From: Polyangiaceae bacterium | GTDB taxonomy: Bacteria > Myxococcota_A > Polyangia > Polyangiales > Polyangiaceae | Direction: 5' to 3' | DNA length: 64,000 nucleotides | Assembly (NCBI GenBank): GCA_025936045.1 | Contig: JAICUB010000013.1 | Coordinates: 62,001-126,000 of the forward strand | Part shown: positions 60,193-64,000 of the stretch, piece after piece | How the letters are laid out: each line of letters starts with the position of its first letter | Numbering within the stretch: position 1 is the stretch's first letter | Program-made: the position numbers and the translations under genes | Notes under the pieces: generated by a model | Told to the model about the DNA's origin: nothing | Databases searched by the model: none | What the model saw: the letters and a program-made list of their open reading frames with translations, nothing else

Positions 60193-60966
60193 GTGTCGAG
60201 CCCCCTGCGTATCGAAGTAGCCGGCCAAACCGACGTGGGCCGCAAGCGTGCCCACAATGAGGACAATTTCGCCATCATGGCGGAATACGGCCTTTACGTG
60301 GTCGCCGATGGAATGGGCGGTCACGCGTCCGGCGAGATCGCTTCGAAGATGGCGGTCGACACGCTGCACGAGTTTTTTACGGCGACCGCCGACGACCCCG
60401 AACGCACGTGGCCATACAAGATGGACCGTTCGAAGGGCTACGAGGAGAACCGGCTCGTCACCGGTATCAAGCTCTGTAACTTGCGCATCTACGAGCAGGC
60501 GCAGCGGAACGCGAAGCAACGCGGCATGGGCACGACGCTCGTCGCGCTCTTCGCGGTCGAAGACGGCATCTACGTCGCGCACGTCGGCGACAGCCGCGTT
60601 TACCGGATTCGGGATCGCAACATCGAGCAGCTGACCGAGGACCACTCGCTGCTCAACGATTACAAGAAGATGAAGCACCTCACGCCGGAGGAACTCGCGA
60701 ATTTCCCCCATAAGAACGTGATCGTGCGCGCGCTCGGCATGAAGGACACCGTCAAGGTGGATACGCGCTTCGAGGCCCCCCGCGCCGGAGACGCGATGGT
60801 GCTCTGTAGCGACGGCCTCTGCGGCCCCGTGAGCGACGAACGCGTCCTCGAGGTCGTGACCAGCGCCCCGAACCTGCCGACCGCCACCCAGCGCCTGATC
60901 GACGCCGCCAACGAAAACGGCGGCCCCGACAACGTCACCTGCGTGATTGCTCGCTGGATCGAGTAG
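60193..60966 (+). CDS. PP2C-family Ser/Thr protein phosphatase
   Basis: Cytosolic metal-dependent phosphatase of 257 residues, the Stp/PrpC type that reverses Hanks-type kinases. All metal and catalytic motifs are present: DVGRKRAHNEDNF, VADGMGGHASGEIAS, GMGTTLVAL, HVGDSRVYRI, CSDGLCGPVSD and GGPDNVTCVIAR. It starts with GTG. The partner-switching-like operon begins 70 bp downstream, but a separate start there makes co-regulation uncertain. Its cognate kinase is unknown; one Ser/Thr kinase lies at 9673-11298. Confidence 0.95.
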   Translation: MSSPLRIEVAGQTDVGRKRAHNEDNFAIMAEYGLYVVADGMGGHASGEIASKMAVDTLHEFFTATADDPERTWPYKMDRSKGYEENRLVTGIKLCNLRIYEQAQRNAKQRGMGTTLVALFAVEDGIYVAHVGDSRVYRIRDRNIEQLTEDHSLLNDYKKMKHLTPEELANFPHKNVIVRALGMKDTVKVDTRFEAPRAGDAMVLCSDGLCGPVSDERVLEVVTSAPNLPTATQRLIDAANENGGPDNVTCVIARWIE

Positions 60967-61036: not shown

Positions 61037-61435
61037 ATGGGCATGAAGCTCGGAGAGAAAGTCGCGGTCGAGTCGCTCGAGGTGGAGCTCAAAGCGCCGA
61101 CCGAGCTCAAACTCGCGGGCACGCTGAGCACGCCCACCGCCCAAGCCGAGTTCCGCCGCCTGCTCCAGGACCTGCACACCGACATCGTCTCGGCGAAGAC
61201 GACGGCTTTCGCCGTGGACGTGCAGGCGCTGAGCTTCGTCAACTCCTCGGCCATTCGCGCCTTCGTCGATTGGATCTCGCGCGCGGCCCACGCTGGCTAC
61301 ACGCTGGCGTTCAAAACGAGCGCGAGCGTGACGTGGCACCGCCTGAGTTTCTCGGTACTGAAGTCGCTCGCGCCCGCCACGGTCGAGATCATCGAGTCGC
61401 GACCCGCCGTCGCAGGCGGAGGGCACCCTTCGTGA
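61037..61435 (+). CDS. STAS-like protein, slr1659-type regulator
   Basis: Small cytosolic protein of 132 residues. The central pattern FAVDVQALSFVNSSAIRAFV resembles the phosphorylatable loop of anti-sigma-antagonist (STAS) proteins, with Ser residues at the expected place. The arrangement fits what has been called the slr1659 superfamily, usually next to an slr1658-type ATPase-like gene and a SpoIIE-type phosphatase, both present here. It begins a four-gene overlapping operon. The ATG at 61037 or 61043 could be used. Confidence 0.72.
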   Translation: MGMKLGEKVAVESLEVELKAPTELKLAGTLSTPTAQAEFRRLLQDLHTDIVSAKTTAFAVDVQALSFVNSSAIRAFVDWISRAAHAGYTLAFKTSASVTWHRLSFSVLKSLAPATVEIIESRPAVAGGGHPS

Positions 61436-61923
61436 AGAAGGGGCACGAGGCCGAGCGTACCCTCACGCTCGAGCGTCGTGACGCCGCGCTCGAAGACGCG
61501 CAGCGCTTCGCCGCGCTCGCCGTGACGACGTGCACGCCCGAGTGTCGCGAAGCGGTGACGCTCGCCGTGTGCGAGCTCGGCGAGAACCTGATCAAATACA
61601 GCGGCAACAGCGACCAGACTCACGCGGGCACCATCGGCGTTTCGTGCGACGGCGACAAAGTCCGCGTGCGAGCGGTGAACCAGGTGACCTCACTCGAAGA
61701 CGCGAAGCGCGTGAGCGACCTCGTGGCCCAGATTTCGGGCTCCGGCATCGACGTGCGTGACCTGTATCGCGCACGTTTGCAGCAGCTTTTCGAGCATCCG
61801 GAGCTGCCTCGCACTCAGCTCGGGCTCTTGCGGATGGCATTCGAAGGGGGCTTTCGCTTGTCGTGCAGCTTCGCGCACTCGGAGCTCTCGATCGTCGCCG
61901 AGCGGGCCTGCGCCGCTCCATGA
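61432..61923 (+). CDS. HATPase-like protein, slr1658-type regulator
   Basis: Cytosolic protein of 163 residues starting at a GTG that overlaps the previous stop (GTGA). The N-box helix reads VTLAVCELGENLIKYSG, as in GHKL ATPases of the RsbW/anti-sigma type, where Glu and Asn bind the ATP-metal complex. The usual G1 box is not obvious, since GSGIDVRDLYRA takes its place. Such proteins may phosphorylate or bind the STAS partner. With the upstream STAS gene and downstream SpoIIE gene it suggests partner switching. Confidence 0.7.
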   Translation: MKKGHEAERTLTLERRDAALEDAQRFAALAVTTCTPECREAVTLAVCELGENLIKYSGNSDQTHAGTIGVSCDGDKVRVRAVNQVTSLEDAKRVSDLVAQISGSGIDVRDLYRARLQQLFEHPELPRTQLGLLRMAFEGGFRLSCSFAHSELSIVAERACAAP

Positions 61924-62975
61924 AGCGCGCACTCCGCTTCGCCGGCGCGCTCACGGCGCTCGCGGTCGTGTGCGCCACGGCGAGCTGCAGCGAGAACCGA
62001 ACGACCGCGCCGCGAGCCGAGCGTGAAGCGATGGCGGCAAAGGCGCTCCCGTCGAGCGCCGCGCCCGCGGCGACGACCTCGCGCGAGCCGCTCGGGGCTT
62101 TGCCGGAGCCGGCGAAAATAGACCCCGCCGTCCTGGCGCTCGGACGGCGCTTGTTCCACGAACCGCGCCTCTCGGGCGACGCCAAGGTGGCGTGCGCGAG
62201 CTGCCACGATCTAGCAAAAGGCGGCGTGGACGGGCGGAAGCTCTCGACCGGAGTCGACGGGCGGCTCGGGCTCGTGAACGCGCCGACCGTCTACAACGCA
62301 GCGCTCAACTTCGTGCAATTCTGGGACGGCCGCGCGGCGACGCTCGAGGAGCAAATCGGGTTTCCGATCACGAACCCCGTCGAAATGGGCTCGAGCTGGG
62401 ACAAGGTGCTGGCATTTCTCGCGGGCGAGCCGAGCTACTCGGCCGCGTTCAAGGCGAGCTTTCCGGACGGCGTGACGGAAGCGAACACGCGCCGGGCAAT
62501 CGCGGATTTCGAGCGCACGCTGCTCACCAGGAATTCGCCGTTCGATCGCTACCTCGGCGGTGACGAGCACGCGCTCGACCCCGAGGCACGCACGGGCTAC
62601 GAGACGTTCAAATCCGTCGGCTGCATTGCCTGCCACCAGGGCCGAAACGTCGGGGGCAACATGTTCCAGAAGTTCGGAGTGCTCGGCGACTACTTCAAGG
62701 ATCGCGGGCACGTCACCGACGCGGACTACGGCCGGTTCAACGTGACGCACCTCGAAAGCGACCGCTTCGTGTTCCGCGTGCCCTCGCTCAGGAACGTCGA
62801 GCGCACCGCGCCTTACTTCCACGACGGCTCGGCGGCGACGCTGAACCAGGCCGTGCAAGTGATGGCGCGCTATCAGCTCGGCCGAAAGCTCGGGGACGAT
62901 CAGGTCTCGGCTCTGATCGCGTTCTTGAAGTCGCTCTCGGGCGACCTCGCGCCCGCGGGCGAAAAGCCAGAATGA
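61920..62975 (+). CDS. di-heme cytochrome c peroxidase/MauG-family lipoprotein
   Basis: Exported protein of 351 residues; the signal sequence ends in lipobox-like TASC (Cys23). Two covalent heme-c motifs are present, CASCH at 92-96 and CIACH at 235-239. Other family marks are NAPTVYNAALNFVQFWDGRA, FPITNPVEMG and AQVMARYQLG-like C-terminal sequence (VQVMARYQLG). It should reduce peroxide or oxidise a partner outside the inner membrane. It overlaps both neighbours by 4 bp (ATGA), placing a redox enzyme inside a signalling operon. Confidence 0.92.
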   Translation: MKRALRFAGALTALAVVCATASCSENRTTAPRAEREAMAAKALPSSAAPAATTSREPLGALPEPAKIDPAVLALGRRLFHEPRLSGDAKVACASCHDLAKGGVDGRKLSTGVDGRLGLVNAPTVYNAALNFVQFWDGRAATLEEQIGFPITNPVEMGSSWDKVLAFLAGEPSYSAAFKASFPDGVTEANTRRAIADFERTLLTRNSPFDRYLGGDEHALDPEARTGYETFKSVGCIACHQGRNVGGNMFQKFGVLGDYFKDRGHVTDADYGRFNVTHLESDRFVFRVPSLRNVERTAPYFHDGSAATLNQAVQVMARYQLGRKLGDDQVSALIAFLKSLSGDLAPAGEKPE

Positions 62976-64000
62976 GCAGCGCGCGCTGGTTCACCCTCAT
63001 CGGCGGCCTCTTCGCGCTCGCGTTCGGGGTGTCCGCGCTGCTCTATCTGCGCTCGCGGTCGGCGGATTTCGACTCGCACACGCGCGCCGTGGCGGCGATC
63101 GGCAACGTGCGCCACCTCGACCGCCTGCTCTCCGAGCAGGTGCTCGCTGCGCGCTTCGGCCTGTTGAACCAGTACGACCCGCTGACGGCGACCGAGCAAG
63201 AGCTCGCGGAAGCCGAGCGCGCCGTGCACGCCCGTGTCGGCGCCGTCGGCACCACGCCGGAAATCGAGACCGCGCTCGCCGAGCTCGACCACGCGCTCGC
63301 GGAGCGGCGGAGCGCGCTCGAGCACTTCAAGGCCGAAAACTCGGTGCTCAAGAACTCGCTGCGCTACTTGCCCACGGCCGGCGAGGAGCTCACGAACGAG
63401 CTCGGTCCGAACGCGAACGGCCCCCTCGGCCGCGACGTGAACGCGCTCGTCCGCGCGGCGCTCGTCTATAATCTGATCGGCGATCAGAGCACGCGCGCGG
63501 CGCACCTCGCGGCCGTGACGCGCGTAGCGGCCGAGCGCTCCGCGCTGCCGAAGGACGTGGGCGCGGACCTCGAGCTCCTACTCGCGCACGCTCGGGTGAT
63601 CGGTGAGCGCCAGCCCTCCGTCGACGGCTGGCTCCGGCGCGCCGCAAACGAGGAGGTGAGCGATCGCCTGGGCGTGCTCGAGCGCCTGTACCAAGGGCGT
63701 TTCAGCGAGAGCGCGACCACGGCGAACGAGTACCGCAAGGTGCTTTACGCTTGGTCGCTGTTTCTGGTGCTGGCGGTCGCGCTCGCGGGAATTCAGCTCC
63801 GGAAGCTCTACGCCGGCTTGGAGCAACGCGTCGCCGAGCGCACCGCGGAGCTCGGCCGCGCGCTCGACGCGCTGTGGGGCGAGATGAAGCTCGCGCGCCG
63901 CATCCAGGAAGCGCTCGTGCCGAACGAGCCGGTGCTCGCGGGCTGCGACGTTGCCGCGAGCATGAAGCCCGCGGAGCAGGTGGGCGGCGACTACTACGAC
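62972..64000 (+). CDS. membrane sensor with DAHL-like domain and SpoIIE phosphatase (3' end cut by window)
   Basis: The first 343 residues of a signal-transducing phosphatase. A membrane helix (about 6-26) is followed by an extracytoplasmic helical region (about 32-245) with LLSEQVLAARFGLLNQYDPL, which resembles DAHL ligand-binding domains. A second helix (SLFLVLAVALAGIQL, about 257-271) and a short coiled coil follow. The SpoIIE/RsbU-type PP2C domain begins at ARRIQEALVPNEP and reaches EQVGGDYYD at the window edge, the first metal-binding motif. It would dephosphorylate the STAS partner in response to an outside signal. It overlaps the peroxidase gene by 4 bp. Confidence 0.85.
   Translation, partial: MSSARWFTLIGGLFALAFGVSALLYLRSRSADFDSHTRAVAAIGNVRHLDRLLSEQVLAARFGLLNQYDPLTATEQELAEAERAVHARVGAVGTTPEIETALAELDHALAERRSALEHFKAENSVLKNSLRYLPTAGEELTNELGPNANGPLGRDVNALVRAALVYNLIGDQSTRAAHLAAVTRVAAERSALPKDVGADLELLLAHARVIGERQPSVDGWLRRAANEEVSDRLGVLERLYQGRFSESATTANEYRKVLYAWSLFLVLAVALAGIQLRKLYAGLEQRVAERTAELGRALDALWGEMKLARRIQEALVPNEPVLAGCDVAASMKPAEQVGGDYYD

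Follow-up and report, generated by a model that had tools for sequence, protein, structure and literature searches.

We analyzed a 64,000-nucleotide stretch of a draft Polyangiaceae genome (6.4 Mb, 86.6% complete), corresponding to bases 62001–126000 of contig JAICUB010000013.1 and referred to here as the window. At its right end is a gene for a di-heme cytochrome c peroxidase (CCP) that overlaps the gene for a membrane sensor with an outer DAHL domain and an inner SpoIIE phosphatase domain. The CCP tracks the DAHL domain rather than the partner-switching genes that are also present here, and we consider it probable, from sequence comparisons, that the CCP is a periplasmic heme co-receptor for DAHL sensors, in this operon driving a SiaABC-like phosphatase. 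This reading is based on gene linkage, domain identity, agreeing trees of the two partners, signature residues, and the interchange of output domains; from these we infer export of the CCP, its contact with the DAHL domain, the direction of signaling, the signal, and the target.

The CCP and sensor genes belong to a single four-gene unit (61037–64669) joined by three 4-bp overlaps, of which the last 669 bases lie beyond the window, and the sensor stop codon was read in the continuation of the contig (L009). An initial annotation of the window described four genes overlapping by 4 bp each and encoding a STAS-like protein, a HATPase-like protein, a peroxidase with two CxxCH motifs, and a DAHL-SpoIIE sensor; these coordinates and overlaps are exact and the profile matches agree with all four assignments. 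The peroxidase was also called a lipoprotein, which is unconfirmed, as a strict lipobox pattern is matched by 7 of 21 CCP rows (including that of G004, a genome of the same genus) and not by the window protein. The features are:

61037–61435, + strand: STAS-like protein, slr1659 superfamily (NCBIfam NF047705, E 9.1e-10, and Pfam STAS, E 0.001, both below cut-off)
61432–61923, + strand: HATPase-like putative kinase, slr1658/SiaB type (DUF6272, 30.5 bits against a cut-off of 26.6); GTG start, GTGA overlap with the STAS gene
61920–62975, + strand: di-heme CCP of the DAHL-paired clade (PF03150, E 4.8e-57; tree; residues); ATGA overlap with the HATPase gene
62193–62207, + strand: first CxxCH heme motif of the CCP (CASCH, residue 92), from the sequence
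62622–62636, + strand: second CxxCH heme motif of the CCP (CIACH, residue 235), from the sequence
62972–64669, + strand (window part ends at 64000): DAHL-SpoIIE membrane sensor, 565 residues (PF19443, PF07228); ATGA overlap with the CCP gene
63065–63736, + strand: DAHL domain, residues 32–255, all-helical in the model (PF19443, E 5.6e-46; AlphaFold2 mean pLDDT 89.7)
63173–63178, + strand: Tyr68-Asp69, part of the signature of CCP-linked DAHL domains (sequence comparison)
63326–63373, + strand: FKxxNxxLKNSLxYLP stretch, residues 119–134, with Asn128-Ser129 (sequence comparison)

The four-gene set and its output module

The description of the STAS, HATPase, and SpoIIE proteins as partner-switching parts is right, with family scores mostly below the curated cut-offs. 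The HATPase exceeds the cut-off for DUF6272 (E 3.2e-7) and has further matches, below cut-off, to the slr1658 superfamily (NF047703, E 3.1e-9) and to the SiaB family (E 1.8e-5); the two slr superfamily scores (38.8 and 36.5 bits) fall short of NCBIfam cut-offs of 100. The SpoIIE domain of the sensor (PF07228, E 7.4e-35, residues 352–537) is encoded past the end of the window, and the half of the protein that carries it has an under-cut-off match to SiaA (E 5.5e-14; 51.6 bits against 700). The STAS protein reads NSS at its likely phosphorylation site, which we place by analogy. A single protein in another locus (L041:824–3025) has a SiaA-like PP2C domain (residues 345–584) fused to an slr1659-type STAS domain (631–721), which ties these output parts together.

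All four genes are present in G004 (a Polyangiaceae metagenome-assembled genome, JAICTZ010000042.1) with 71–87% identity per protein or domain. Of 59 genomes, the window's own among them, G004 is the only one with a highly similar copy of the complete sensor (76% identity). This conservation alone says little, because the flanking genes are shared too. In G128, from another genus of the family, the order is HATPase–STAS–CCP–sensor, with the first two genes swapped; slr1658 and slr1659 matches are present, and identities to the window are 61% for the CCP, 43% for the sensor, and 36% for the HATPase. Phosphatase, HATPase kinase, and STAS genes are therefore found within one operon in three genomes, and the SpoIIE-type DAHL sensors of the three group together in the DAHL tree (support 98), such that the swap to a SpoIIE output may have happened once. 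The synteny search proposed in the initial annotation thus finds the peroxidase retained in homologous operons. The annotation regarded this exact combination of genes as the novel feature; the pattern with the wider reach is the CCP–DAHL pair.

Fifteen sister SpoIIE loci without a DAHL domain (L041–L055) have no adjacent CCP at E 0.05, although one of them (L050) has a 25%-identity CCP match about 4.5 kb away; a STAS or HATPase match is present somewhere in 8 of the 15 stretches. An association of the CCP with the SpoIIE, STAS, and HATPase genes is rejected by these loci.

The CCP–DAHL pair in four phyla

DAHL matches over the cut-off were obtained in 13 of 183 genomes of the order and 11 of 377 genomes of a phylum sample, with two shared, giving 22 Myxococcota genes; below-cut-off matches were dropped (3 of 16 genomes in the order, 8 of 19 in the phylum sample, and 6 of 70 in the order of Gallionella discussed below, L067 among them). 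In 20 of the 22, the gene immediately upstream, in the same orientation, encodes a CCP. The misses are L056, with no CCP end in the 262 bases before DAHL and with a paired-type CCP elsewhere in its genome (G042), on a different contig, and L066 (G150), which has a broken DAHL frame with a short CCP remnant upstream. The stop and start codons overlap by 4 bp in 17 of 21 Myxococcota pairs, a count somewhat favored by taking the nearest start. The outputs, read for 21 of the 22 genes, are HisKA kinases (9), kinases without a HisKA match (2), GAF-HisKA kinases (2), Hpt-HATPase proteins that we would read as CheA-like (3), hybrid kinase-receivers (2), and SpoIIE phosphatases (3).

Among plasmid records, which span Alphaproteobacteria, Betaproteobacteria, and Cyanobacteriota, a CCP is directly upstream of DAHL in 12 of 15 loci. 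Rhizobium accounts for 10 of these 15, and the remaining five are from Indioceanicola, Skermanella, Sinorhizobium, Vitreoscilla, and the cyanobacterium Gloeocapsa. A scan of named genome contigs gave a CCP at 8 of 9 DAHL loci, one in a Poribacteria metagenome-assembled genome, with 4 of the 9 being repeats of earlier loci. The pair is present in Myxococcota, Pseudomonadota, Cyanobacteriota, and Poribacteria. Chance adjacency is rejected, both because the pair recurs and because the window CCP is the sole one of three genome-wide CCP_MauG matches to exceed the cut-off, adjoining the only DAHL match of the genome. Neighborhood by inheritance only, with no functional tie between the genes, is hardly credible, as the retention of flanking genes between the window genome (G000) and G004 is set against a pair that has overlapping genes and different outputs in four phyla, and against the G128 set with its two swapped genes.

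Two proposals had been made for the link between enzyme and sensor, that the sensor reads something via the peroxidase or that the peroxidase is the controlled output, and we favor the former. A detoxifying CCP placed in the operon as the output of the switch would account for the overlapping genes and the intact catalytic residues of the window CCP, but it is very unlikely, because the CCP accompanies DAHL whatever the output domain, being upstream of DAHL genes with unrelated outputs, because it is not beside the 15 sister SpoIIE loci, and because 20 of 52 paired CCPs are without the catalytic glutamate (see below). Moreover, a partner switch acts in the cytoplasm by protein binding, whereas the CCP is expected in the periplasm.

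Plasmid kinases named VirA-like carry the upstream CCP, though one does not. Genes annotated as encoding an alpha/beta hydrolase, a GMC oxidoreductase, a cytochrome P450, or an MFS protein adjoin five alphaproteobacterial pairs (L077, L080, L084, L085, and L089), a setting that hints at catabolic regulons.

DAHL genes without an adjacent CCP and a DAHL signature

The order of the Gallionella genome G489, which we take to be Burkholderiales in GTDB, is represented by 349 genomes, 64 of which contain a total of 66 DAHL genes over the cut-off. An adjacent CCP is present at 19 of the 66, including 15 of the 17 that score at least 100 bits and 18 of the 39 that score at least 70. The 47 others show that DAHL as such needs no CCP, and the proposition that it always does is rejected. 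We retrieved 21 of the 47 (L101–L120 and L140), which fall in one branch together with the CCP-linked Vitreoscilla DAHL L079 (22 rows, SH-aLRT 97, inner order unresolved). For the 20 that were inspected, the upstream genes include LivF/LivG-like ABC genes (at 8 loci) and MFS-type transporter genes (at 5), with translations judged by eye, and an open reading frame of 629–653 residues follows 15 of the 20.

The Tyr-Asp and Asn-Ser residues listed above are both present in 48 of 54 CCP-linked DAHL domains and in none of the 21 CCP-less relatives, and Asn-Ser alone is present in 52 of 54 versus 0 of 21; L066 is counted among these 54, though it is a miss in the gene counts. The tree and signature sets exclude the near-copies L090 and L091, the trees exclude L066, L133 (a duplicate of L097) is left out of the signature and CCP sets, and L125 (a CCP fragment) is left out of the CCP trees and most residue counts.

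Some individual loci depart from the pattern. L082 is a Rhizobium VirA-like DAHL kinase whose paired-type CCP occupies two frames some 4 kb away (NZ_CP104990.1:223065–223918), possibly a decaying pair. L087 and L091 come from two nearly identical stretches of Rhizobium plasmids; in both, the gene upstream of the DAHL kinase encodes an OmpR-type response regulator, and no CCP is adjacent. No CCP was found on the plasmid of L087, that of L091 being outside the search, and the signature is partly lost in L087 (Asn-Ser to Thr-Ser). The genome of L100 has only an unpaired-type CCP.

The window sensor matches PF19443 with 157.5 bits against a cut-off of 38 over positions 2–221 of the 221 in the model, and its N-terminal half matches the VirA-like model NF010411 under cut-off (E 7.2e-26). 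Modeling of the outer part, as the initial annotation advised, predicts an all-helical domain (AlphaFold2 with a 10-row alignment). A whole-sensor sequence search of the PDB returned PP2C/SpoIIE chains only. Foldseek gave no match of the DAHL model to the PDB at E 0.001 or better; the top matches are the sensor domains of PilJ, McpS, and TorS (E 1.4e-3 to 4.8e-3, TM about 0.3–0.5), among them TorS 3i9y (E 2.8e-3, TM 0.42/0.52), and the TorS-TorT complexes 3o1h, 3o1i, and 3o1j are also matched. In the helix limits of the model, Tyr-Asp follows the first periplasmic helix and the FK..NS stretch is mid-way along helix 96–149, and the two may meet near the junction of two bundles.

Co-diversification and the peroxidase active site

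In a quick, midpoint-rooted tree the paired CCPs constitute one side of a branch, with 52 rows versus 19 unpaired (SH-aLRT 99). CCP and DAHL tree distances correlate (Mantel r 0.48, with 0 of 2000 permutations as high), and the nearest neighbor is the same in both trees for 33 of 52 pairs. The unpaired controls are our choice among the better-scoring unpaired CCPs, and 11 of the 19 are from genomes that also have a paired CCP; L160, on the same contig as L098, was removed, so that 19 controls were used and not 20.

The window protein matches CCP_MauG (PF03150) with 193.2 bits against a cut-off of 25.6. In our alignment of paired CCPs we assumed the columns of the Met ligand and of the distal histidine of the peroxidatic heme, the latter presumably His71 in P. 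aeruginosa numbering. Among PDB chains, those of bacterial CCPs match the window CCP best (8.6e-87 to 1.1e-60) and rank ahead of those of MauG, which match it at about 1e-25. MauG has a tyrosine ligand on its six-coordinate heme (PMC6405878); the aligned residue is methionine in 53 of 53 paired CCPs. With this ligand and the PDB ranking, MauG-like cofactor chemistry is not favored, even though the MbnH and MauG models rank first in NCBIfam.

The roles of the active-site residues Trp98, Gln108, and Glu118 have been described for the Neisseria gonorrhoeae CCP, and the glutamate is required for O–O cleavage in the enzymes studied (PMC10094543). The window CCP keeps the Trp, Gln, and Glu together with the Met ligand, and has valine in the column of the distal histidine. 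Among paired CCPs, the Trp and the first CxxCH are each present in 52 of 52, the second CxxCH in 53 of 53, and the Gln in 47 of 52. None of 52 has the distal histidine, compared with 6 of 19 unpaired controls, and the peroxidatic heme of paired CCPs is therefore probably always open. The catalytic glutamate is kept by 32 of the 52 paired CCPs and by 18 of the 19 unpaired ones (the column is uncertain for L124). The 20 paired CCPs without it are L078 and 19 rows that make up a single branch (support 89). A branch that presumably does not cleave peroxide and is still tied to the sensor gene argues for a receptor role, although it is no proof that the window CCP has stopped being an enzyme.

The CCP could alternatively make or remove a small ligand, either an oxidized product or peroxide, that is bound by the DAHL domain itself with no contact between the two proteins. 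We consider this unlikely. The window CCP does keep its active-site residues, the DAHL model has structural neighbors, McpS among them, that bind small ligands (judged from structure titles), and several of the alphaproteobacterial pairs are beside hydrolase, oxidoreductase, or transporter genes, but the 20 CCPs without the O–O-cleaving glutamate are still paired with signature-bearing DAHL domains.

Proposed mechanism

In the co-receptor reading, the DAHL transmembrane sensor would read the state of a dedicated periplasmic di-heme CCP that is translated with it. The CCP, having no gating distal histidine, would react with peroxide or change its redox or ligand state, and in its altered form influence the helical domain of the sensor, possibly close to the Tyr-Asp/FK..NS site. 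Once across the membrane, the signal would reach the SpoIIE (PP2C) phosphatase, and this enzyme would set the phosphorylation of the STAS protein in opposition to the slr1658/SiaB-type kinase, and the STAS protein would then bind a target, as in SiaABC. Candidate signals are peroxide, the periplasmic redox state, or another heme ligand. More broadly, and with somewhat less assurance, we lean towards CCP–DAHL being a cross-phylum class of two-protein receptors with dedicated di-heme peroxidases, one branch of them catalytically crippled, and with histidine kinase, CheA-like, hybrid, and PP2C outputs. If so, the input of the CCP-paired form of the DAHL family becomes directly testable in four phyla, a lineage of peroxidases gains a signaling role, and a SiaABC-like partner switch acquires a defined heme input.

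Several points weigh against the co-receptor reading. The CCP–DAHL complex is a putative one, and no target of the STAS protein was found in the locus, which downstream holds a GH2 glycosidase. The 47 of 66 DAHL genes without an adjacent CCP in the order of Gallionella are joined by L056, L082, L087/L091, and L100, which also have no adjacent CCP and keep all or most of the signature (in full in three of L056, L082, L087, and L100). Phylogeny and function are confounded in the signature contrast, and shared ancestry inflates both this and the Mantel correlation, with the history of the hosts also adding to the latter. The glutamate was apparently lost in about two events on the tree and not in 20, and the window CCP keeps Glu, Gln, and Trp, so that ordinary turnover is possible; in NCBIfam, the CCP has its top-ranked matches, both under cut-off, to the models of MbnH (E 2.4e-50) and MauG (E 3.8e-45). 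The kinase activity of the window HATPase is in doubt, as it reads TQLGLL where G128 has GSGLGL. Lastly, the fold likenesses of the modeled DAHL domain are weak, and helical bundles match readily.

Relationships to known systems

The closest parallel on the sensor side is the TorS/TorT/TorC system for sensing trimethylamine N-oxide in E. coli, in which TorC is a c-type cytochrome and neither TorT nor TorC is known to be a di-heme peroxidase. TorS has two stacked four-helix bundles, with TorT listed as a ligand, and apo-TorC bound to its periplasmic part inhibits it (PMC8534201). As proposed for DAHL and CCP, an all-helical periplasmic sensor is under the influence of a periplasmic partner protein, although the match between the folds is a weak one and TorS, unlike the window sensor with its SpoIIE output, is a hybrid kinase. 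By analogy, inhibition by apo-TorC may serve as a precedent for a cytochrome acting on a helical sensor.

For the cytoplasmic side, the logic of the proposed STAS phosphorylation switch is supplied by SiaABC of Pseudomonas aeruginosa, in which a PP2C phosphatase, the SiaB kinase, and SiaC constitute a partner switch (PMC7647112). The window operon shares the PP2C phosphatase and the SiaB-type kinase logic, with family scores under cut-off. Neither a DAHL domain nor a CCP appears in the accessible parts of the SiaABC(D) description; conversely, the window operon is without a diguanylate cyclase gene, and its STAS protein is of slr1659 type with Ser-Ser where SiaC has Thr68. The cyanobacterial slr1658/slr1659 regulators have the same two superfamilies side by side, the window matches being below the curated cut-offs. 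VirA-like sensor kinases (NF010411/PRK13837) resemble the window sensor N-terminally but have histidine kinase outputs. Bacterial CCPs (9qdt, 3o5c, 1iqc, and 1eb7) have two c-heme motifs, Trp, Gln, Glu, and the Met ligand in common with the window CCP; paired CCPs differ from these in the absence of the distal histidine (52 of 52), the absence of Glu (20 of 52), and their formation of a separate sensor-paired group.

No description of the CCP–DAHL pair and no dedicated study of the DAHL domain were found in the literature searched, which excluded most subscription papers and all preprints, and a CCP_MauG network paper (PMC6405878) mentions neither a histidine kinase nor a sensor. The pairing appears to be new, with parts and logic of known kinds.

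Flanking genes

Reading past base 64000 for an output gene, as suggested in the initial annotation, yielded none, the next gene after the sensor being that of a glycosidase:

64560–67136 in window numbering (L009:6560–9136), beyond the window end: GH2 family glycosidase, open reading frame after the sensor (profile match)

This gene is also kept after the operon in G004, and by eye a signal peptide is not evident. At the other end, a gene for a Stp1/IreP-type PP2C phosphatase (60193–60966) is located 70 bp upstream of the STAS gene; it is not present on the short contig of G128 and is 96% identical in G004.

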